Source: an uncultured Alphaproteobacteria bacterium
Lineage (GTDB): Bacteria > Pseudomonadota > Alphaproteobacteria > Caulobacterales > Hyphomonadaceae
Reading direction: 5' to 3'
NCBI GenBank assembly: GCA_903831485.1
Contig: CAIKXW010000378.1
Span: 1-6,341, forward strand
DNA: 6,341 nt
Shown here: one piece after another, positions 1 through 6,341 of the stretch
Position numbering within the stretch: the stretch's first letter is position 1
Layout: every line of letters begins with the position of its first letter
Notes under the pieces: generated by a model
What the model saw: the letters and a program-made list of their open reading frames with translations, nothing else
The model's database searches: none
Told to the model about the DNA's origin: nothing
Program-made: the position numbers and the translations under genes

Positions 1-1491
1 AGTGACGTACTCGCTTCACTCGCCGCCAGCAACCCCGCGTACGGCCTCTCCATGTCCGACGTGAAGACGGATCTCAACGATCACGTCACGAACTTCCGCG
101 ATCTTCTCGCCGCCAACGTCGAACTCACCGCCAAAAACGAGTTGGGTCCTGTGATCGCCGCCGTTGCGCCCGCGCTGGAAGATTACATCGCGACAGCAAC
201 GAAGCTGGTCGAGACCGCAGCGATCGATGAGCCGGCCGCCCTCGCGATGCTGTCGGGATTCTTCGACGACTTCCGCGCCCTGGAGGGCGCCATGGAGCAG
301 GCGTCGGACGAGATTTCAGCTTTGTCGGATTCCGCTGTCGCGCAGGCCTCGATGATCGGCACGATTTCACAAATTGCCATCCTGATCGCCTCGCTCATGG
401 CGATCGGCGCGGTCATCGCCATCATGCTCGGCGCGCGCAGCCGGGTCGTGGGCCCCATTGTCGATCTCACCAACGCCATGGACAAGCTGGCCGCAGGCGA
501 CACCAGCGTTCAAGCGCCGCACCGCGACCGCGAGGACGAGGTGGGCCGCATGGCCGCCGCTCTCACCAAGTTCCGGGAAAATGCGATCAACCGCGTGGCG
601 CTGGAAGCAGCCCAACGCACCCAGGAACAGGAGCGCACCGAGCGAAGCCGCCGCGTCGAAGCCCTGGCTTCGGGCTTTGCAGACCAGCTGGCCGCCACGC
701 TGTCCACGCTCCGCGAGTCCTCGGGCCGCCTGATGAAGGACGCCACGTCTCTCGAGCACGTCTGCGACGAAGCCAACCGTAGCGCGTCGAAAGCGACCAA
801 CGCCACCGACGGCGCCAACTCGAATGTTCAGACCATCGCGGCTGCAACGACCGAGCTCAGCGCCTCGATCCAGGAAATCGCAACGCGCATGTCCGAATCT
901 GCCCGCTCGGCAGAGCAGGCCGTCACTCAGGGCAACGCCGCAGGCGTCACCGCCCGGGAGTTGGCCGATGCGGCCCGCAACATCGACGAGATCGTCTCGG
1001 TGATTGGGAGCGTCGCTGAACAGACCAACCTGCTCGCGCTGAACGCCACCATCGAGGCGGCCCGCGCCGGCGAGATGGGCCGCGGTTTCGCCGTAGTCGC
1101 CGCCGAGGTGAAGGCGTTGGCCAGCCAGACCTCGCGCGCCACCGAAGACGTTTCGCGGCGCATCGTGGAAATTCAGGGCATCAGCGCGCGCTCGACGGAT
1201 CAGCTGCGCGACGTCGTCGCCCTGATCGATCAGATGAAGCAGTTCAGCGTCGCCGTAGCCGCCGCAGCGGAAGAACAAAGCGCCGCTACCAACAGCATCG
1301 CCCAAAACGTCAACTCTGCCGCCGGTCTTTCGGACGAGGCGCGCGACAGTGTCGCTGCGATGAGCAGCGTGACCGCCCAGGCGCGCGCAGCCACGTCCTC
1401 CGTCCAGGACAGCGCGCGCTCGGTTGAAGATCTATCAGTGCGCCTCAACGCGGTCGCCCGTGAATTCCTCGATAAGCTGAAGGCGGCTTAG
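1..1491 (+). CDS. Methyl-accepting chemotaxis protein (5'-truncated by window edge)
   Basis: This is a membrane chemoreceptor that should pass a periplasmic signal to CheA/CheW and so to the flagellar motor. The frame is open from base 1, so 496 codons are visible and the true start is upstream; the ATG at 52 is internal. Bases 1-350 encode a helical, Ala/Glu/Asp-rich stretch, probably the periplasmic sensor. A hydrophobic segment at about 352-429 ([20 protein letters not shown] and onward) is the second membrane span. A HAMP domain follows at about 430-590, with the typical P-I, GD and DEVGRMA residues. A long coiled coil leads to the conserved signalling hairpin at about 1018-1122, with [19 protein letters not shown] and then [15 protein letters not shown]. 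That motif is diagnostic of the MCP family. The C-terminus ([11 protein letters not shown]) has no NWETF-type CheR/CheB tether. The ligand cannot be read from the sequence. Confidence 0.95.
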
Positions 1492-1496
1492 CCGTC
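1482..1496 (+). terminator. Weak hairpin across the MCP stop codon
   Basis: GGCGGC (1482-1487), a TTA loop and GCCGTC (1491-1496) can pair as a 6-bp stem with one G-U pair, overlapping the TAG stop. Only three T residues follow (GCGTTTGC), so it is a poor intrinsic terminator by the usual criteria. It is listed because it is the only hairpin at the gene end; it may be chance in GC-rich DNA. Confidence 0.2.
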
Positions 1497-1621
1497 GCGT
1501 TTGCAATCCGGTAACCACGGCTTCACAACGGTTAAGCTTGTCCGGCGATTTACCCTAACAGGATGGCCCGGCAAATTAGGTTTGCTCTGATAGCACTCTT
1601 TCATTGCTCCTCGAAGCTGAT

Positions 1622-1626
1622 GGAAG
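1622..1626 (+). promoter_or_regulatory. Possible ribosome binding site for the porin-like gene
   Basis: GGAAG lies 4 nt before the GTG at 1631. The spacing is short, but this is the best purine-rich match before any of the three possible starts (TTG 1604, GTG 1631, ATG 1661), and it favours GTG 1631. Confidence 0.4.
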
Positions 1627-1630
1627 TGTC

Positions 1631-2689
1631 GTGCACCTCAGAGCCCCGAACCGGACGTTTATGTTCCTCGCAACGCTTGCGGCGATTGCCGCTGCGCCTG
1701 CTGCTCTCGCGCAGGATACTGACGCCGAAGATATCAGCCAGCAAGGCGCGGTGGAGCTGACGCTTGATCACGCCGATACCGGCGAGGACGTGCTTGCGGC
1801 GACGATCAACTATGGCCTCGCCGTCCGCTTTGCCGAAGGCTGGACGGTTCAGCTGGACGCTGTTCTGGAGCCAGTGGTCGATCCGGCGGGCGATGAGGCC
1901 TTCGAGGGCGAAGACGCCTTCATTGAAACGCTGTCGCTTCAATATGCGGGGGAGGCATTCACCGTCTATGGCGGCAAGATCAATCCCGTCTTCGGCAGCG
2001 CGGCGGACGTCGCGCCCGGCCTCTACGGCGTCGAAGCGGGCGAATCCTACCAGATCACCGAGGCGCTCGGCGTCGGCGGCGACATCTCGCTGACCTCGAT
2101 GCTGAACCTTGACGGCGAACATGTTCTGTCCGCTGCGCTCTTCTCCGCTGACCGCTCCGCTTTGTCAGGTTCGCTGGGCGGATTGCGCGAGGAACTGGAA
2201 CTCGCCGATGGCGGCCTTGCCAACACGGAAGGCCTGAAGTCAGTCGCGCTCAGCATCGATGGCGTGCTGGCGAACGGCGTTGGCTACACCCTTGGCCATC
2301 GCCGCCTCGCAACGGACACGCCGGGCGAAACTGATGAAAACACCACCGTGCTCGGCGTCAACTATGCCTGGCCAGAGGACAGCGGCCTCGACCTGGCGGT
2401 GATGGCCGAGGTGGCCGCGTCGCGCAATGCCGATGGCGTCGACGGCGCGAACCGCGACTTCTACACGGCCGGCGGCACGCTCGGTCTCGGCGACTGGTTC
2501 GTCAACGCGATTGCCTCAGGCTGGAACGAGAATGCGACAGCGGGCGATCTCGACGTCCGCAAGCTCGAACTCTCGGTTGGCCGCGCGCTGGCCGAAACCC
2601 TCGTGCTGGAAGTTGGTGTTCAGGACGTGCGCGAATCCGGCGCGTCGGCCACCGTGATTGGCGCTCGCCTCTGCTGGGAATTTGGTTGA
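1631..2689 (+). CDS. Porin-like outer-membrane beta-barrel protein
   Basis: This is probably an outer-membrane protein of 352 residues. From GTG 1631 the N-terminus is MHLRAPNRTF followed by a hydrophobic run ending APAALA before QDTDAED. That is a signal peptide with a basic n-region and a likely cleavage after residue 27. ATG 1661 is an alternative start but would leave the signal without positive charge; TTG 1604 has no ribosome binding site. The mature part is acidic and Gly-rich, with many alternating polar/hydrophobic stretches such as GWTVQLDAVLEPVV, AFTVYGGKINPVFG, GVGYTLGHRRL and LVLEVGVQDVRE, as expected for strands of a transmembrane barrel. It ends in RLCWEFG, with aromatic residues near the terminus as in many outer-membrane barrels. 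The substrate is unknown and no specific porin family could be named. It lies 139 bp after the MCP gene and converges with the small gene that follows. Confidence 0.8.
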   Translation: MHLRAPNRTFMFLATLAAIAAAPAALAQDTDAEDISQQGAVELTLDHADTGEDVLAATINYGLAVRFAEGWTVQLDAVLEPVVDPAGDEAFEGEDAFIETLSLQYAGEAFTVYGGKINPVFGSAADVAPGLYGVEAGESYQITEALGVGGDISLTSMLNLDGEHVLSAALFSADRSALSGSLGGLREELELADGGLANTEGLKSVALSIDGVLANGVGYTLGHRRLATDTPGETDENTTVLGVNYAWPEDSGLDLAVMAEVAASRNADGVDGANRDFYTAGGTLGLGDWFVNAIASGWNENATAGDLDVRKLELSVGRALAETLVLEVGVQDVRESGASATVIGARLCWEFG

Positions 2690-2695
2690 GAGTTT

Positions 2696-3013
2696 CTATC
2701 GAACCGTGACGATAATCGCGCTGGCGCCTGCGAGAGCGGGCGTCAGTCGCGTTCTGGCATAGGTGATCCGGCGCGACACCGTGGTGGTCGTCTCGGCGAT
2801 CACCTTGCCCGAAGCGTCATGTCCGAGCATCACAATGGTGCGGGGGGAAAGGCTGCGGGCCGAGCCCAGCACACCCTGGTCAAGCCTGACAACCACTTCG
2901 CCATCCGCGAGGCTGGCGCGGATCGCTGGCATCGAGGCCTTCACGACCGGGTCGGCAACAGCAGGGGCGGCCAGCATGGCCGAGGCGGCGAGGAAAGCGA
3001 AAACGGCGCGCAT
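2696..3013 (-). CDS. Small exported protein of unknown function
   Basis: A 105-residue protein on the minus strand. It starts MRAVFAFLAASAMLAAPAVA, a textbook signal peptide, with likely cleavage after AVA and before DPVV at residue 20/21. The mature part is about 85 residues, has no cysteine and no membrane span, and reads as alternating beta-type segments (GEVVVRLDQ, RTIVMLGHD, KVIAETTTTVSRR, SAIIVTVR), so a small beta-sandwich in the periplasm is plausible. The start is well supported: TTGGAGC precedes the ATG with about 8 nt spacing. Its stop is 6 bp from that of the porin-like gene (convergent), and it lies downstream of the giant repeat gene in the same direction with a 182-bp gap. I do not recognise the family. 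The signal peptide, start and ribosome binding site make it very likely a real gene; the plus-strand frames over it look like shadows. Confidence 0.8.
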   Translation of the reverse strand: MRAVFAFLAASAMLAAPAVADPVVKASMPAIRASLADGEVVVRLDQGVLGSARSLSPRTIVMLGHDASGKVIAETTTTVSRRITYARTRLTPALAGASAIIVTVR

Positions 3014-3021
3014 TTCGAAAG

Positions 3022-3025
3022 CTCC
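3022..3025 (-). promoter_or_regulatory. Ribosome binding site of the small exported gene
   Basis: On the minus strand GGAG, within TTGGAGC, lies 8 nt before the ATG that ends at 3013. Position and sequence fit a normal Shine-Dalgarno site and decide this start. Confidence 0.7.
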
Positions 3026-3080
3026 AAACGTACCACGCCCGAACGATGCCCGTGGCGTTCACATCCTGCACCGCAAGGAC

Positions 3081-3100
3081 GGGGCCAACAACCCGGCCCC
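3081..3100 (-). repeat. GC-rich inverted repeat in the leader of the small exported gene
   Basis: GGGGCC (3081-3086) and GGCCCC (3095-3100) form a perfect 6-bp stem around an 8-nt loop. It sits about 70 bp before the small gene's start and about 95 bp after the giant gene's stop. In the leftward direction of transcription it is followed by GTCCTTGCGG, not a T-run, so it is not a standard intrinsic terminator. It could be a leader hairpin, a protein site or chance in GC-rich DNA. Confidence 0.4.
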
Positions 3101-3104
3101 TGTT

Positions 3105-3130
3105 AAACAAAAAGGTAACCGTATTCACGG
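3105..3130 (-). terminator. Weak candidate terminator after the giant repeat gene
   Basis: On the minus strand CCGT-GAAT-ACGG (3119-3130) can form a 4-bp tetraloop hairpin, followed within 5 nt by TTTTTGTTT. The T-rich tract is the only one in this gap and lies on the correct strand and side of the giant gene's stop. The stem is short, so the call is tentative; the same T-rich tract could instead be part of the small gene's promoter. Confidence 0.2.
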
Positions 3131-3195
3131 GCGCTGGCTCTTCGGCTCCCACTGTCCCAGCTTAGGCCACATAAGCCCACTTTGCGCCGGTTCGG

Positions 3196-6100
3196 CTAGC
3201 TGATCGCGCGGATGATTGCGGCCTGCTGGTCAACTGTCAGGCTGTTGATCTGGTCCGGTGTGAACCCACTGATCTGCAGCGGCGTGAGCGCGTCAATCTG
3301 GTCGGCAGTCAGCGCGCCGATGGCCGTGGTCGTGATGCCCCCGATCTGCGTCGAGGTGAGGCCGCTCAACTGTGCGGGCGTGAACGACCCGATCCATGTG
3401 GGTAGGTTGCTCAGCTGGGAAGAGGTCAGAGCGGCGACATGCGAGGCGTTGAGCGCTGCGAACTGCGAAGACGAGAACGCTCCGAGACGTGTGGAGGACA
3501 GGCTACCCACCTGGTCCCCGGTGAAGGCCGCAACCTGCGAAGTGGTGAAGGCGGAAACCTGCGTGTCCGTCAACGAACGAAGCTGCACACGGACAAAGCC
3601 CGCCAGCTGGGTCACGCTCAGGGAGGATATGTCGTCGGTTCCAAGCTGGCCGATGTCGGTTGTCTCCAATGCGCCGATCTGTGTCGCCTTGAGGCCGGCG
3701 AGCTGCGTAAGCGTCAGCTGGTCGATCTGCGTGGTTGTGAGGCCGACGATCGCAGATGACGACAGCGCGGCGATCTGCGATGCGCCCAGCGCCGCAAACT
3801 GCGACGAATTCAGAACGCCGATCTGGTCAGCTGAAAGGCCGCTGACAAGCGTGGAGGACATCGCACCGATCTGTGTTGCGCTTAGTCTGTCGAGTTGGGT
3901 CGCCGTCAACGCCGACGCCCATGTCTCTGCAAAGTCGCTCGCAGCAAGTTGCGTCACCGTCAACGTCGGGATCGCATCAAGTGCAAGCGCGCCAACCGCG
4001 GTGGAGGATAAAGCAGCGAGCCTTGATGTCCCAAGTGCTGCGACCTGCGTCGACGACAGTGTGGCGGCTTGGCTCGCGGTCAGCCCGCGCATCGCGGAGG
4101 TGGACAATGCGGCAAGTCTTGTAGTGGAAAGTCCGGAGATTTGTGTCGTCGTGAGGCTGGGGAGTTGCGTTTCCGCGAGTCCGCCCAGCTGTGTTGTGCC
4201 GAGCGCGTTGAACTGCTGGCTCGACAGAGCAGCGACCTGGGTCGATGTCAGCGCAGAGATCTGAGTGGAAGCAAGGCTGGCGAACTGCGATGAGGTAAGA
4301 GCGCCGATCTCTGTCGTGTCCAGGCTCTGAACCGTGGTGGTCGACAAGGCGGAGATCTGCGCCGTCGTCAGCGACTGAATTTGCGTCGCATTCAGGTAGT
4401 CGATATTCGTCGCCGTGAAGCCGCTGGCGCCGTCTGCCGAGATGGCGCGCAGTTGTGTCGTGTTCAGCAGGCTTACATGGTTGGCGTCAAGATGCGCGAC
4501 CTGCGTAGTGTTGAAGCCCGCCAGCTGGGTCGTGGTCAGCGACAAGGCCTGGGTCAGCGTCAGCCCGGTTAGCGCAGTTGTGGAAAGTGCGCCGGCCTGC
4601 GCGCCGTTCAGCGCCGCCATTTGCGTCGGTGCGAGGCTGGCAAGCTGTGCGGAAGACAGGCCCGCGACGCCACCGATCGACAGTGCTGCAATATCAAGGT
4701 TCGACATGGCGGCAAGCTGCGAGATGCTGATAGCCGCGACCTGCGTCGCGTCGAAACCAGACATCGCAGAAGCCGGGAGGGCCTGTATCTGGGTCGTCGA
4801 TAGCGCCTGGATTTGCGCCGTCGAGAAACCCGACACCTGCGTGGCCGTCAGCCCTCTTACCTGCGTCGTCGTGAAGGCGGATACCGCGGTCGCGCCCAGC
4901 GCTGAGATTGCAGTGCTGGAGAACCGCGTTAGCTGCGCGCCAGTCAATGAAGCTATCTGCGTGGCGGAAAGAGCGCCGGCCTGCGTCTCCGACAGCGCGG
5001 CAAACTGTGTTGCTGTAAAGGCGCCAAGTTGCGACTGGCTCAACAGTGAAATGCTGGTTGTCGCAAGGCCGCCAACCGCGCCGGTAGACAGCGCGGCAAT
5101 CTGCGTCGACTTGAGCGCGGCCAGCTGCGTCGCTGCAAGCGCGCTGGCATGCGTGGCAAGGAGGCCCTGAATCTGTGTCGTGCTGAGCGCCGCAATCTGC
5201 GCGGTGCTGAATGCTGCGAGCTGCGTTTCCTCGATAGCGCTGACCTGCGTCGCAGTCAGGCCATGCAGGCGCGTGGTCGCCAGGCTCTGGATATCTTCGA
5301 GTTCCAGGCCCTGAACAGCCGAGGCGCCGAACATCCCAACCTGCGCGGCCGAGAGCCGGTTGAACTGGGTGGCCGTCAGCGCATTCACCTGGTCAGCCGT
5401 GAACCCTCGAAGCTGCGACAGAGTCAGCGCGGCCATTTGCGATGTGGTCATCGCGCCGATCTGGGCTTCGGAGAGGGCGCCAATGGTCGTGGCTGTGAGG
5501 CCCTTTACCTGCGTCGTGCTCAGGGTGGCAATCTGCGTCTCGTTCAGTTCGGCGACCTGCGCGGCGTCGAATCCGGAGATCGCCGTGGAAGTGATCGCAG
5601 CAAACTGCGATGTGCTCAGCGCTGCAAGCTGTTCGCCGGAAAGGGCTTGCGCCTGCGTCGCTGTGATGGCGGCCAGCTGGGTAGTCGTGAAGGCCTGCAG
5701 TTGCGTCGCGCCAAACGCACCAACCGCCTCGGCGCCCAGCGACCGCACCTGCGTCGCGGTGAGGGCTGCAAGTTGCGTGGTGGTGAGCGCCGCCGCCTGC
5801 ACTTGGTTCAAGACTCCAAGCTGCGCCGGCATCAGCCCGAGCACCTGCGTACGGGTAAGCCCGGCGATGTCCTCCGCGTCGAGGCCATCGAGCGCCGTCG
5901 TCGAGAGCGCGCCGATCTGCGTAGAGGCCAGCGCCGCCAGCTGATCGCTGGACAGCCCGCCGATCGCCCGTGATTCCAGCGCGCGCACCTGCACCGCGGA
6001 CAGCGCCGCCAACTGCGACGTCGACAGCCCCGAGGACTGCTCACCGGACAAGCCGCTGATGGCTGTCGGACTCATCCCTTTCAGTTGCGTCGTTGTCAGG

Positions 6101-6341
6101 CTTGCCAGCGCCTCCGCCCCAAGGGCTGCAACCTGCGCGGATGTGAAGCCGCCAATCGCGGTCGAGGTCAGGACAGGCAGTTGTGTTGTACTGAGCCCGG
6201 AAACCTGATCGGCGGTGAGCCCGCCGAGCTGCGTCGATGTGAGCGCCATCAACTGGCTTGTCGTTAAGGCGCCGATTTGGGTATCCGCGAGGAGGCCGAT
6301 CCCGCTTGACGTGAAGCCGCGCACCTGTGCTGTCGTGAGTG
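3196..6341 (-). CDS. Giant Gln/Thr/Ser-rich octapeptide-repeat protein (5'-truncated by window edge)
   Basis: A minus-strand frame stays open from the right edge to a TAG at 3196-3198, giving about 1047 visible residues. The GTG at 6322-6324 is only the Val of a repeat: the residues before it (LTTAQ) continue the pattern, so the real start lies outside. The whole visible protein is a tandem octad, [A/G/S]-[L/F/I/M]-[S/T/N/D/G]-x-[T/S]-Q-[L/I/V]-x, about 131 units. Position 2 is L, F, I or M in every regular unit, and position 6 is Gln in about 89. There is no cysteine, few charged residues and only two tryptophans. No signal peptide, membrane span, catalytic motif, RTX motif, sorting signal or barrel domain is visible; the last unit (AIIRAIS) ends at the stop. 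Similar ALTTxQ-type repeats occur, as I recall, in large proteobacterial proteins, but I cannot name a family. A secreted or surface protein is a guess. Plus-strand open frames here are shadows. Confidence 0.92.
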   Translation of the reverse strand, partial: LTTAQVRGFTSSGIGLLADTQIGALTTSQLMALTSTQLGGLTADQVSGLSTTQLPVLTSTAIGGFTSAQVAALGAEALASLTTTQLKGMSPTAISGLSGEQSSGLSTSQLAALSAVQVRALESRAIGGLSSDQLAALASTQIGALSTTALDGLDAEDIAGLTRTQVLGLMPAQLGVLNQVQAAALTTTQLAALTATQVRSLGAEAVGAFGATQLQAFTTTQLAAITATQAQALSGEQLAALSTSQFAAITSTAISGFDAAQVAELNETQIATLSTTQVKGLTATTIGALSEAQIGAMTTSQMAALTLSQLRGFTADQVNALTATQFNRLSAAQVGMFGASAVQGLELEDIQSLATTRLHGLTATQVSAIEETQLAAFSTAQIAALSTTQIQGLLATHASALAATQLAALKSTQIAALSTGAVGGLATTSISLLSQSQLGAFTATQFAALSETQAGALSATQIASLTGAQLTRFSSTAISALGATAVSAFTTTQVRGLTATQVSGFSTAQIQALSTTQIQALPASAMSGFDATQVAAISISQLAAMSNLDIAALSIGGVAGLSSAQLASLAPTQMAALNGAQAGALSTTALTGLTLTQALSLTTTQLAGFNTTQVAHLDANHVSLLNTTQLRAISADGASGFTATNIDYLNATQIQSLTTAQISALSTTTVQSLDTTEIGALTSSQFASLASTQISALTSTQVAALSSQQFNALGTTQLGGLAETQLPSLTTTQISGLSTTRLAALSTSAMRGLTASQAATLSSTQVAALGTSRLAALSSTAVGALALDAIPTLTVTQLAASDFAETWASALTATQLDRLSATQIGAMSSTLVSGLSADQIGVLNSSQFAALGASQIAALSSSAIVGLTTTQIDQLTLTQLAGLKATQIGALETTDIGQLGTDDISSLSVTQLAGFVRVQLRSLTDTQVSAFTTSQVAAFTGDQVGSLSSTRLGAFSSSQFAALNASHVAALTSSQLSNLPTWIGSFTPAQLSGLTSTQIGGITTTAIGALTADQIDALTPLQISGFTPDQINSLTVDQQAAIIRAIS
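3199..6341 (-). repeat. 24-bp imperfect tandem repeat array encoding the octapeptides
   Basis: The coding DNA is a tandem array with 24-bp period, about 131 copies, running to the window edge. On the plus strand the recurring core looks like CTGCGTCG or TTGCGTCG (antisense of T-Q). Copies are heavily diverged. All units are 24 bp except 3913-3942 (30 bp, ASDFAETWAS), 3388-3408 (21 bp, NLPTWIG) and the terminal 3199-3219 (21 bp, AIIRAIS). This is a coding repeat, not a CRISPR or satellite: every length change is a multiple of three, the minus-strand frame is never broken, and there are no unique spacers. Confidence 0.9.

Follow-up and report, generated by a model that had tools for sequence, protein, structure and literature searches.

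A giant octad-repeat protein of the ALTTAQ family in an uncultured Hyphomonadaceae bacterium, possibly a superhelical surface rod

The window analysed here is a stretch of 6,341 nucleotides from an uncultured alphaproteobacterium of the family Hyphomonadaceae (GenBank assembly GCA_903831485.1, contig CAIKXW010000378.1, positions 1 to 6,341). Its minus strand carries, at 3196..6339, the C-terminal 1047 residues of a giant protein made of eight-residue repeats, or octads, of the ALTTAQ type. Our favoured reading, to which we give a probability of roughly one half, is that this protein forms an exported superhelical rod and that the rod is glycosylated in a related set of proteins (group B, below). 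Export and glycosylation are steps that we infer.

The open reading frame of the repeat gene has 1047 codons and a stop codon (3196-3198) and is open at its 5' end, entering from beyond the window's right edge. Residue identity within the array is 0.32 at a lag of eight and 0.30-0.33 at lags of 16, 24, 32 and 40; the largest value in 200 residue shuffles, over lags up to 40, was 0.15. The consensus octad, counted in register, is L/F - S/T - x - T/S - Q - I/L/V - A/G/S - A/G. The first four columns are L (74%) or F (17%), T (36%) or S (31%), T (28%) or A (27%), and T (53%) or S (16%); the last four are Q (68%), I (33%), L (27%) or V (23%), A (32%), G (21%) or S (18%), and A (47%) or G (27%). 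The glutamine at position 5 is the same column that a preliminary description of the window had numbered 6 and found in about two thirds of units. That description also called the array uninterrupted; it is indeed one array, but the register breaks at 3910..3957 (minus strand, ...VTQLAASDFAETWASA...) and at 3379..3426 (minus strand, ...TSSQLSNLPTWIGSFT...). The first break has a counterpart in four related stretches (L001, L014, L018, L021) and the second is common to L001. The last few residues are also out of octad register: the protein ends at 3199..3237 (minus strand, ...TVDQQAAIIRAIS) in what is predicted to be a single longer terminal helix, and the ends in the same four stretches are similar. 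Cysteine is absent from the twelve arrays in which it was counted, and charged residues make up 6-9%.

A complete copy of the gene is found in L001, a Hyphomonadaceae metagenome-assembled genome, between the same neighbours as in the window. The L001 protein extends about 731 residues further at its N terminus, still as octads, to a total of about 1778 residues; it consists of octads from about residue 1 to its end and has no credible second Pfam domain. Taking the length from L001, the window holds the C-terminal 59% of an approximately 1778-residue protein with octads only, about 222 of them. This agrees with the preliminary description of a giant octad protein that begins outside the window and has no other domain. 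The likely start in L001 reads [MV]VSFI[AT]SY..., as it does in L014, L016, L018 and L021.

The window and L001 arrays align without gaps over 1047 codons, with 876 identical residues. Differences at codon positions 1, 2 and 3 number 142, 59 and 431, and the nonsynonymous and synonymous rates (dN and dS) are 0.094 and 0.81, giving a dN/dS of about 0.12. From the ungapped alignment and the low dN relative to dS, the gene very likely yields a protein, which is constrained by purifying selection, and the possibility raised earlier that the gene is not translated finds no support here. Tandem Repeats Finder reported just one run of 2.2 copies at the DNA level, the units being highly diverged, so the repeats are old. 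Long open frames on the plus strand (3212-4264, 4415-5170, 5149-5973) lie opposite the repeat gene and mirror its 24-base codon periodicity; they are most likely not genes.

The preliminary description could name no repeat family for the array. Pfam can: PF20080 (ALTTAQ repeat) scores 398.6 bits (cut-off 26.4) over 38 stretches of the window's part and 649.6 bits over 55 stretches of the full-length relative, so that membership in this family is well supported by sequence. A protein search returned 350 relatives at E <= 0.001 among 7999 candidates scored, and ALTTAQ proteins were found in Alphaproteobacteria, Pseudomonas and metagenomes. A calpain-type protease (PF00648) is present in 37 of the best 120 of the 350 relatives, counted by hand; others among those listed carry Ig-like, G8, RTX or TPS modules. 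Many members of the family thus join the repeat to other domains, whereas the window's protein is repeat throughout and of near-fixed length.

The array also matches a PDB chain, 9ZEM ('HeliScrew4'), by sequence (E 2.8e-14 over 108 residues), as do the group B proteins. Judging by its name, 9ZEM is probably a designed construct; it has 120 residues against about 1778 here, and the likeness is one of sequence, not superposition. The array therefore belongs to a named family, probably one with a structure, if 9ZEM is accepted on its sequence. A literature search returned no paper that names ALTTAQ, PF20080 or HeliScrew, in keeping with the earlier remark that the role appears open. It found no paper on 9ZEM either; in the text available to it, the one paper containing that string concerns rice and is unrelated.

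Complete relatives fall into two length groups. The genome set comprised 61 genomes (that of L001 and 60 relatives), with a PF20080 match in ten and a match over the cut-off in nine. Group A, to which the window belongs, has four complete proteins (in L001, L014, L018 and L021), with lengths in ascending order of 1778, 1779, 1782 and 1782 residues; L016 also belongs here, and its masked stretch excluded it from the alignment and the length comparison. Group B (L013, L015, L017, L019, L022, L023, L024) has 1721 or 1722 residues in all seven cases. A low-threshold repeat filter also gave antisense frames, and a filter on TQ content removed these together with L020, a further short array of 547 codons in genome G010 that is not part of the group comparison. 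Aligned with MAFFT, group A proteins (43-62% identity) show gaps of 1 or 3 residues only and group B proteins (67-90%) no internal gaps; between the groups identity is 36%, with gaps of up to 80 residues. We also considered whether insertions and deletions come as whole superhelical turns, as pairwise gaps pile up at 24, 32, 56, 80 and 112 residues, and less at 192, which fits turns of 27.4 residues. Gaps of 16 residues are also common, the pairs are not independent and the aligner favours in-phase gaps, so this idea was kept as a hint only. Two overlapping frames share the array between them in L074, L080, L083 and L084, which may reflect assembly error, decay or frameshifting.

AlphaFold2 models were built for the 1047 residues (mean predicted local distance difference test score, pLDDT, 86.2; predicted template modelling score, pTM, 0.47) and for a 301-residue piece (mean pLDDT 82.0, pTM 0.68, with two sequences only). 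In these models, most octads form a short helix, four to six residues long, followed by a short turn, with a few gaps and one helix of 14 residues. A local fold of one short helix and a turn in most octads is thus a well-supported prediction, while the long-range shape of both models is not trustworthy. Foldseek placed mesothelin first for the 301-residue model (probability 1.00, TM-score 0.31-0.37) and at rank 47 for the 1047-residue model, after other large solenoid chains. Mesothelin is described, in the part of the source available to us, as a right-handed solenoid of short helices (PMC10035497). The match shows a similar style in the models and not kinship; hits of the fold searches on other solenoids, importins and catenin included, were likewise not taken as evidence of kinship. 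Mesothelin and the ARM/HEAT solenoids are among the nearest known systems for comparison.

A longer period runs through the arrays. It was first noticed in groups A and B and then tested, as the periodicity of glutamine at position 5 with 300 shuffles each, on all 45 frames of at least 900 codons from 44 stretches; these frames are related and do not count as independent tests. The peak falls between 3.33 and 3.52 octads in 42 of 45 frames (3.3% of the frequencies tested lie in this band), and in 39 of them it also exceeds the frame's own 99% shuffle level. The glutamine superperiod is 3.42 octads, or 27.4 residues, and in L013, the group B member examined, its phase is maintained along the array. 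This periodicity suggests that the short helices coil up as one unbroken superhelical screw, each superperiod corresponding to a turn of about 3.4 octads. It also provides a number against which the fold can be tested.

Group B arrays are associated with a glycosyltransferase. All seven of their loci continue, on the array's strand, with the same gene, that of L013 or a relative of it, and the L013 gene encodes tetratricopeptide (TPR) repeats and a glycosyl transferase family 41 domain (GT41, PF13844). Among 20 near relatives, those with PF13844 were the seven genomes of group B and, through a weak fragment, G012. We then drew 299 genomes evenly across the order, 30 of which carry a group-B-like array at E <= 1e-20. 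PF13844 was present in all 30 and in 24 of the other 269 (Fisher 9e-27, a value that overstates independence because the genomes are related). In 29 of the 30, a distance of 67-207 bp separates the array from the start of the GT41 match that follows it on that strand; among these, the array lies in two frames in four genomes and is spread over contigs in G300. The exception, G280, has its GT41 gene about 1.2 kb beyond the array's other end, in the opposite direction, and a second array (L068) with no GT41 gene nearby.

Pairing of array and GT41 gene extends outside the order to Rhizobium, Cereibacter, Rhodovastum and Pseudomonas plasmids, partly in divergent order. The best GT41 match lies within 10 kb in at least 25 of 57 array-bearing plasmid records (a hand count over the best 60 of 99 GT41 records), many of the array-bearing records being near-identical Cereibacter plasmids. 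No GT41 gene is annotated in the Shinella and Thioclava plasmid stretches inspected. The threonine fraction is 0.188 in 38 GT41-linked frames versus 0.146 in 12 unlinked ones, a comparison that leaves out two contig pieces of G300 (L087, L088), where the array end adjoins the GT41 gene; the higher threonine content fits O-glycosylation and is confounded by descent. N-glycosylation was also considered: of the 898 octads with Asn at position 5 in GT41-linked arrays, 378 have Ser or Thr at position 7, compared to 523 of 5901 with Gln. Octads with Ala, Ser, Gly or Thr in place of this Asn behave alike (34-42%), and we rejected an Asn sequon in favour of what looks like structural covariation. Behind the array-GT41 pair of L067 and L075 lies a gene for an FkbM-type methyltransferase, perhaps involved in sugar modification.

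Two known systems resemble this arrangement. FlmG, with TPR and GT-B domains, glycosylates Ser/Thr of flagellin in the cytoplasm (PMC7591256), and HMW1C is a GT41 enzyme encoded beside its adhesin substrate (PMC3983070), both as described in the portions of these papers available to us. Each couples a TPR or GT41 enzyme to one large structural surface protein, as in group B. The group B array is unrelated to flagellin or, as far as compared, to TPS adhesins, the N-sequon of the HMW1C type is not specifically enriched, and glycosylation of the array is putative. Through this tight pairing, one group of bacterial O-GlcNAc-transferase-like enzymes gains a substrate that can be tested. None of the results listed by our literature searches showed the GT41 pairing, the 3.42-octad period or the near-fixed length, and these features together make the function testable.

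Putting these elements together, the short helices of a full-length protein would form a continuous screw of about 3.4 octads per turn and some 65 turns, a long stiff rod. Packed helices usually lie about 1 nm apart; if each turn rises by about 1 nm, the rod would be some 60 nm long. It would be made in the cytoplasm and leave the cell with no Sec signal, most likely through type I secretion, to serve at the cell surface, or after being shed from it, as a spacer or adhesion fibre. In group B and several distant relatives, the adjacent GT41-type enzyme would O-glycosylate the Thr/Ser-rich surface of the rod before export, in the cytoplasm by analogy with FlmG on flagellin and HMW1C on its adhesin (PMC7591256, PMC3983070, as far as the available text goes). 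Group A is a paralogue with no adjacent GT41 gene, and so probably an unglycosylated sibling, or one that uses its partner's enzyme where both occur. Somewhat short of even odds is the broader proposal of an undescribed class of bacterial surface rods, which would combine a 3.42-octad screw bearing a phase-locked stripe along its length, cytoplasmic glycosylation by an adjacent dedicated TPR-GT41 enzyme, type I export and, in some lineages, an unglycosylated paralogue, the window holding an example of the latter.

A number of observations weigh against the exported, glycosylated rod. The array gene is dispensable: the close relative L002 has the same flanks as the window and no repeat gene between them (between 11093-11548 and 11603-13135). 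The window's own superperiod is not significant (power 7.6 versus its 99% level of 9.6), and only three of the five other group A frames pass the test, L016 and L018 peaking in the band and below the 99% level; three of the 45 frames peak elsewhere (L069 at 4.27, L076 at 4.72 and L078 at 3.31 octads). 9ZEM is absent from the 50 best rows of each PDB fold search, its presence in that structure library being unchecked, and so the likeness rests on sequence. Under other gap costs, the pairwise alignment of L001 with L021 contains a gap of 24 residues; the claim that octads were neither gained nor lost within group A therefore depends on the alignment, which the lengths themselves do not. There is no GT41 match beside the array in the window (where only the 3' side is visible), L001, L014, L016, L018 or L021, and PF13844 has no match anywhere in the draft genomes G004 and G007, where the only array seen belongs to group A. 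From these loci and genomes, glycosylation cannot be general. High threonine also occurs in unlinked arrays (L068, 0.182; L076, 0.199). Type I genes adjoin the array in just two of the lineages opened, and PrtD-type ATPases over the cut-off in five of nine array-positive versus two of eleven array-negative near relatives decide nothing.

Export is the weakest step, which we infer with no signal visible, and the alternative that bears on it is a cytoplasmic scaffold or filament. The rod would then stay inside the cell, and the GT41 enzyme of its relatives would act as a regulator or chaperone rather than help build a surface coat. No Sec signal peptide is visible by eye at group A or B N termini, which would suit a cytoplasmic protein. 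Type I exporter genes were absent among the scanned neighbours of the window and the group A loci, and no complete exporter set was identified among those of group A and B arrays, not every neighbour having been scanned in either case. GT41-type enzymes themselves work in the cytoplasm, according to the accessible text of the two papers cited above (PMC7591256, PMC3983070). On the other side are relatives fused to extracellular modules (TPS with ESPR, or RTX) and exporter genes at some loci. A Pseudomonas plasmid has a full set beside its array and GT41 gene (TolC, HlyD and a PrtD-type ATPase over the cut-off), ABC transporter and HlyD genes lie beside the array-GT41 pair on plasmid pA of the laboratory strain Cereibacter sphaeroides 2.4.1, and in L059 and L061 the gene after GT41 is TolC-like. 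The cysteine-free arrays with few charged residues would also fit a secreted surface protein. We consider a cytoplasmic role unlikely, though it is the alternative that fares best. Autotransporter-domain genes near several arrays also speak for the surface; they lie at 11848-15999 in L014 and, as gene cluster 2, in L056, L057, L058, L064, L065, L066 and L068, the L014 and L056 members having been scanned.

A second alternative takes the near-constant number of octads at face value, as a length ruler or tape measure for another structure. It draws on lengths that vary by no more than a few residues in group A, despite identities of 43-62%, and by one residue in group B, and on four relatives that share stop-to-stop frames of exactly 2160 codons each. 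Lengths nevertheless differ between groups of one order, from 1721 residues to array frames of 2722 codons; no partner was found whose length the array could set, and L002, a close relative, does without it. We regard a ruler as improbable. A beta-solenoid of the ice-nucleation or leucine-rich repeat (LRR) kind is more improbable still: the octads are rich in S, T and Q, some Cereibacter relatives bear an ice-nucleation label, LRR chains match weakly by sequence and LRR_EndoS is over the cut-off for the whole protein, but the latter has no individually passing stretch, the ice-nucleation Pfam family is absent from matches up to E 1, and both AlphaFold2 models list helices only, with none of the one beta strand per repeat that marks LRR proteins.

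Returning to the locus, a small protein of 105 residues is encoded on the array's strand, downstream of it (2696..3013, minus strand), with an N terminus that looks by eye like a signal peptide; it has no Pfam match over the cut-off and is 84% identical in L001. Next to it, a putative porin-like outer-membrane protein, read as such from its sequence (1604..2689, plus strand), also lacks a Pfam match over the cut-off. The porin-like gene served as the anchor in the search for relatives of the locus and found two, L001 (86%) and L002 (82%), in both of which the small gene is conserved beside it. A relative of the small gene adjoins the array in L018 as well, and in L002 it occurs with no array at all; both genes are part of the locus and have no demonstrated link to the array. 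In L018, a group A gene fills the interval that holds no array in L002; this gene is oriented the opposite way and adjoins one for an acyl-CoA dehydrogenase. The L018 porin is 66% identical, compared to 88% between L001 and L002, so L018 is more distant, and on these sequences ancestral presence followed by loss in L002 is plausible. Other neighbours of group A arrays (acyl-CoA dehydrogenase, TonB receptor, Usp protein, autotransporter) vary among genomes and were set aside.

The left end of the window truncates a methyl-accepting chemotaxis protein (1..1491, plus strand; PF00015, PF00672), which is flank only. No match for the window was found in NCBIfam or among phage records. The window's flanks gave plasmid near-matches in 23 records, the 20 best being short matches inside the chemotaxis gene. 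Two observations concern annotated relatives elsewhere. The Cereibacter ALTTAQ protein (records H77-H83) is annotated as 'ICE nucleation protein' or 'heme utilization protein', and we saw no support for either label. On psAtri5, an 18.9 kb plasmid of a Spiroplasma endosymbiont of Drosophila, a protein encoded at 8722-12174 (L098) is 24% identical to the window's and has a period-8 identity of 0.32.

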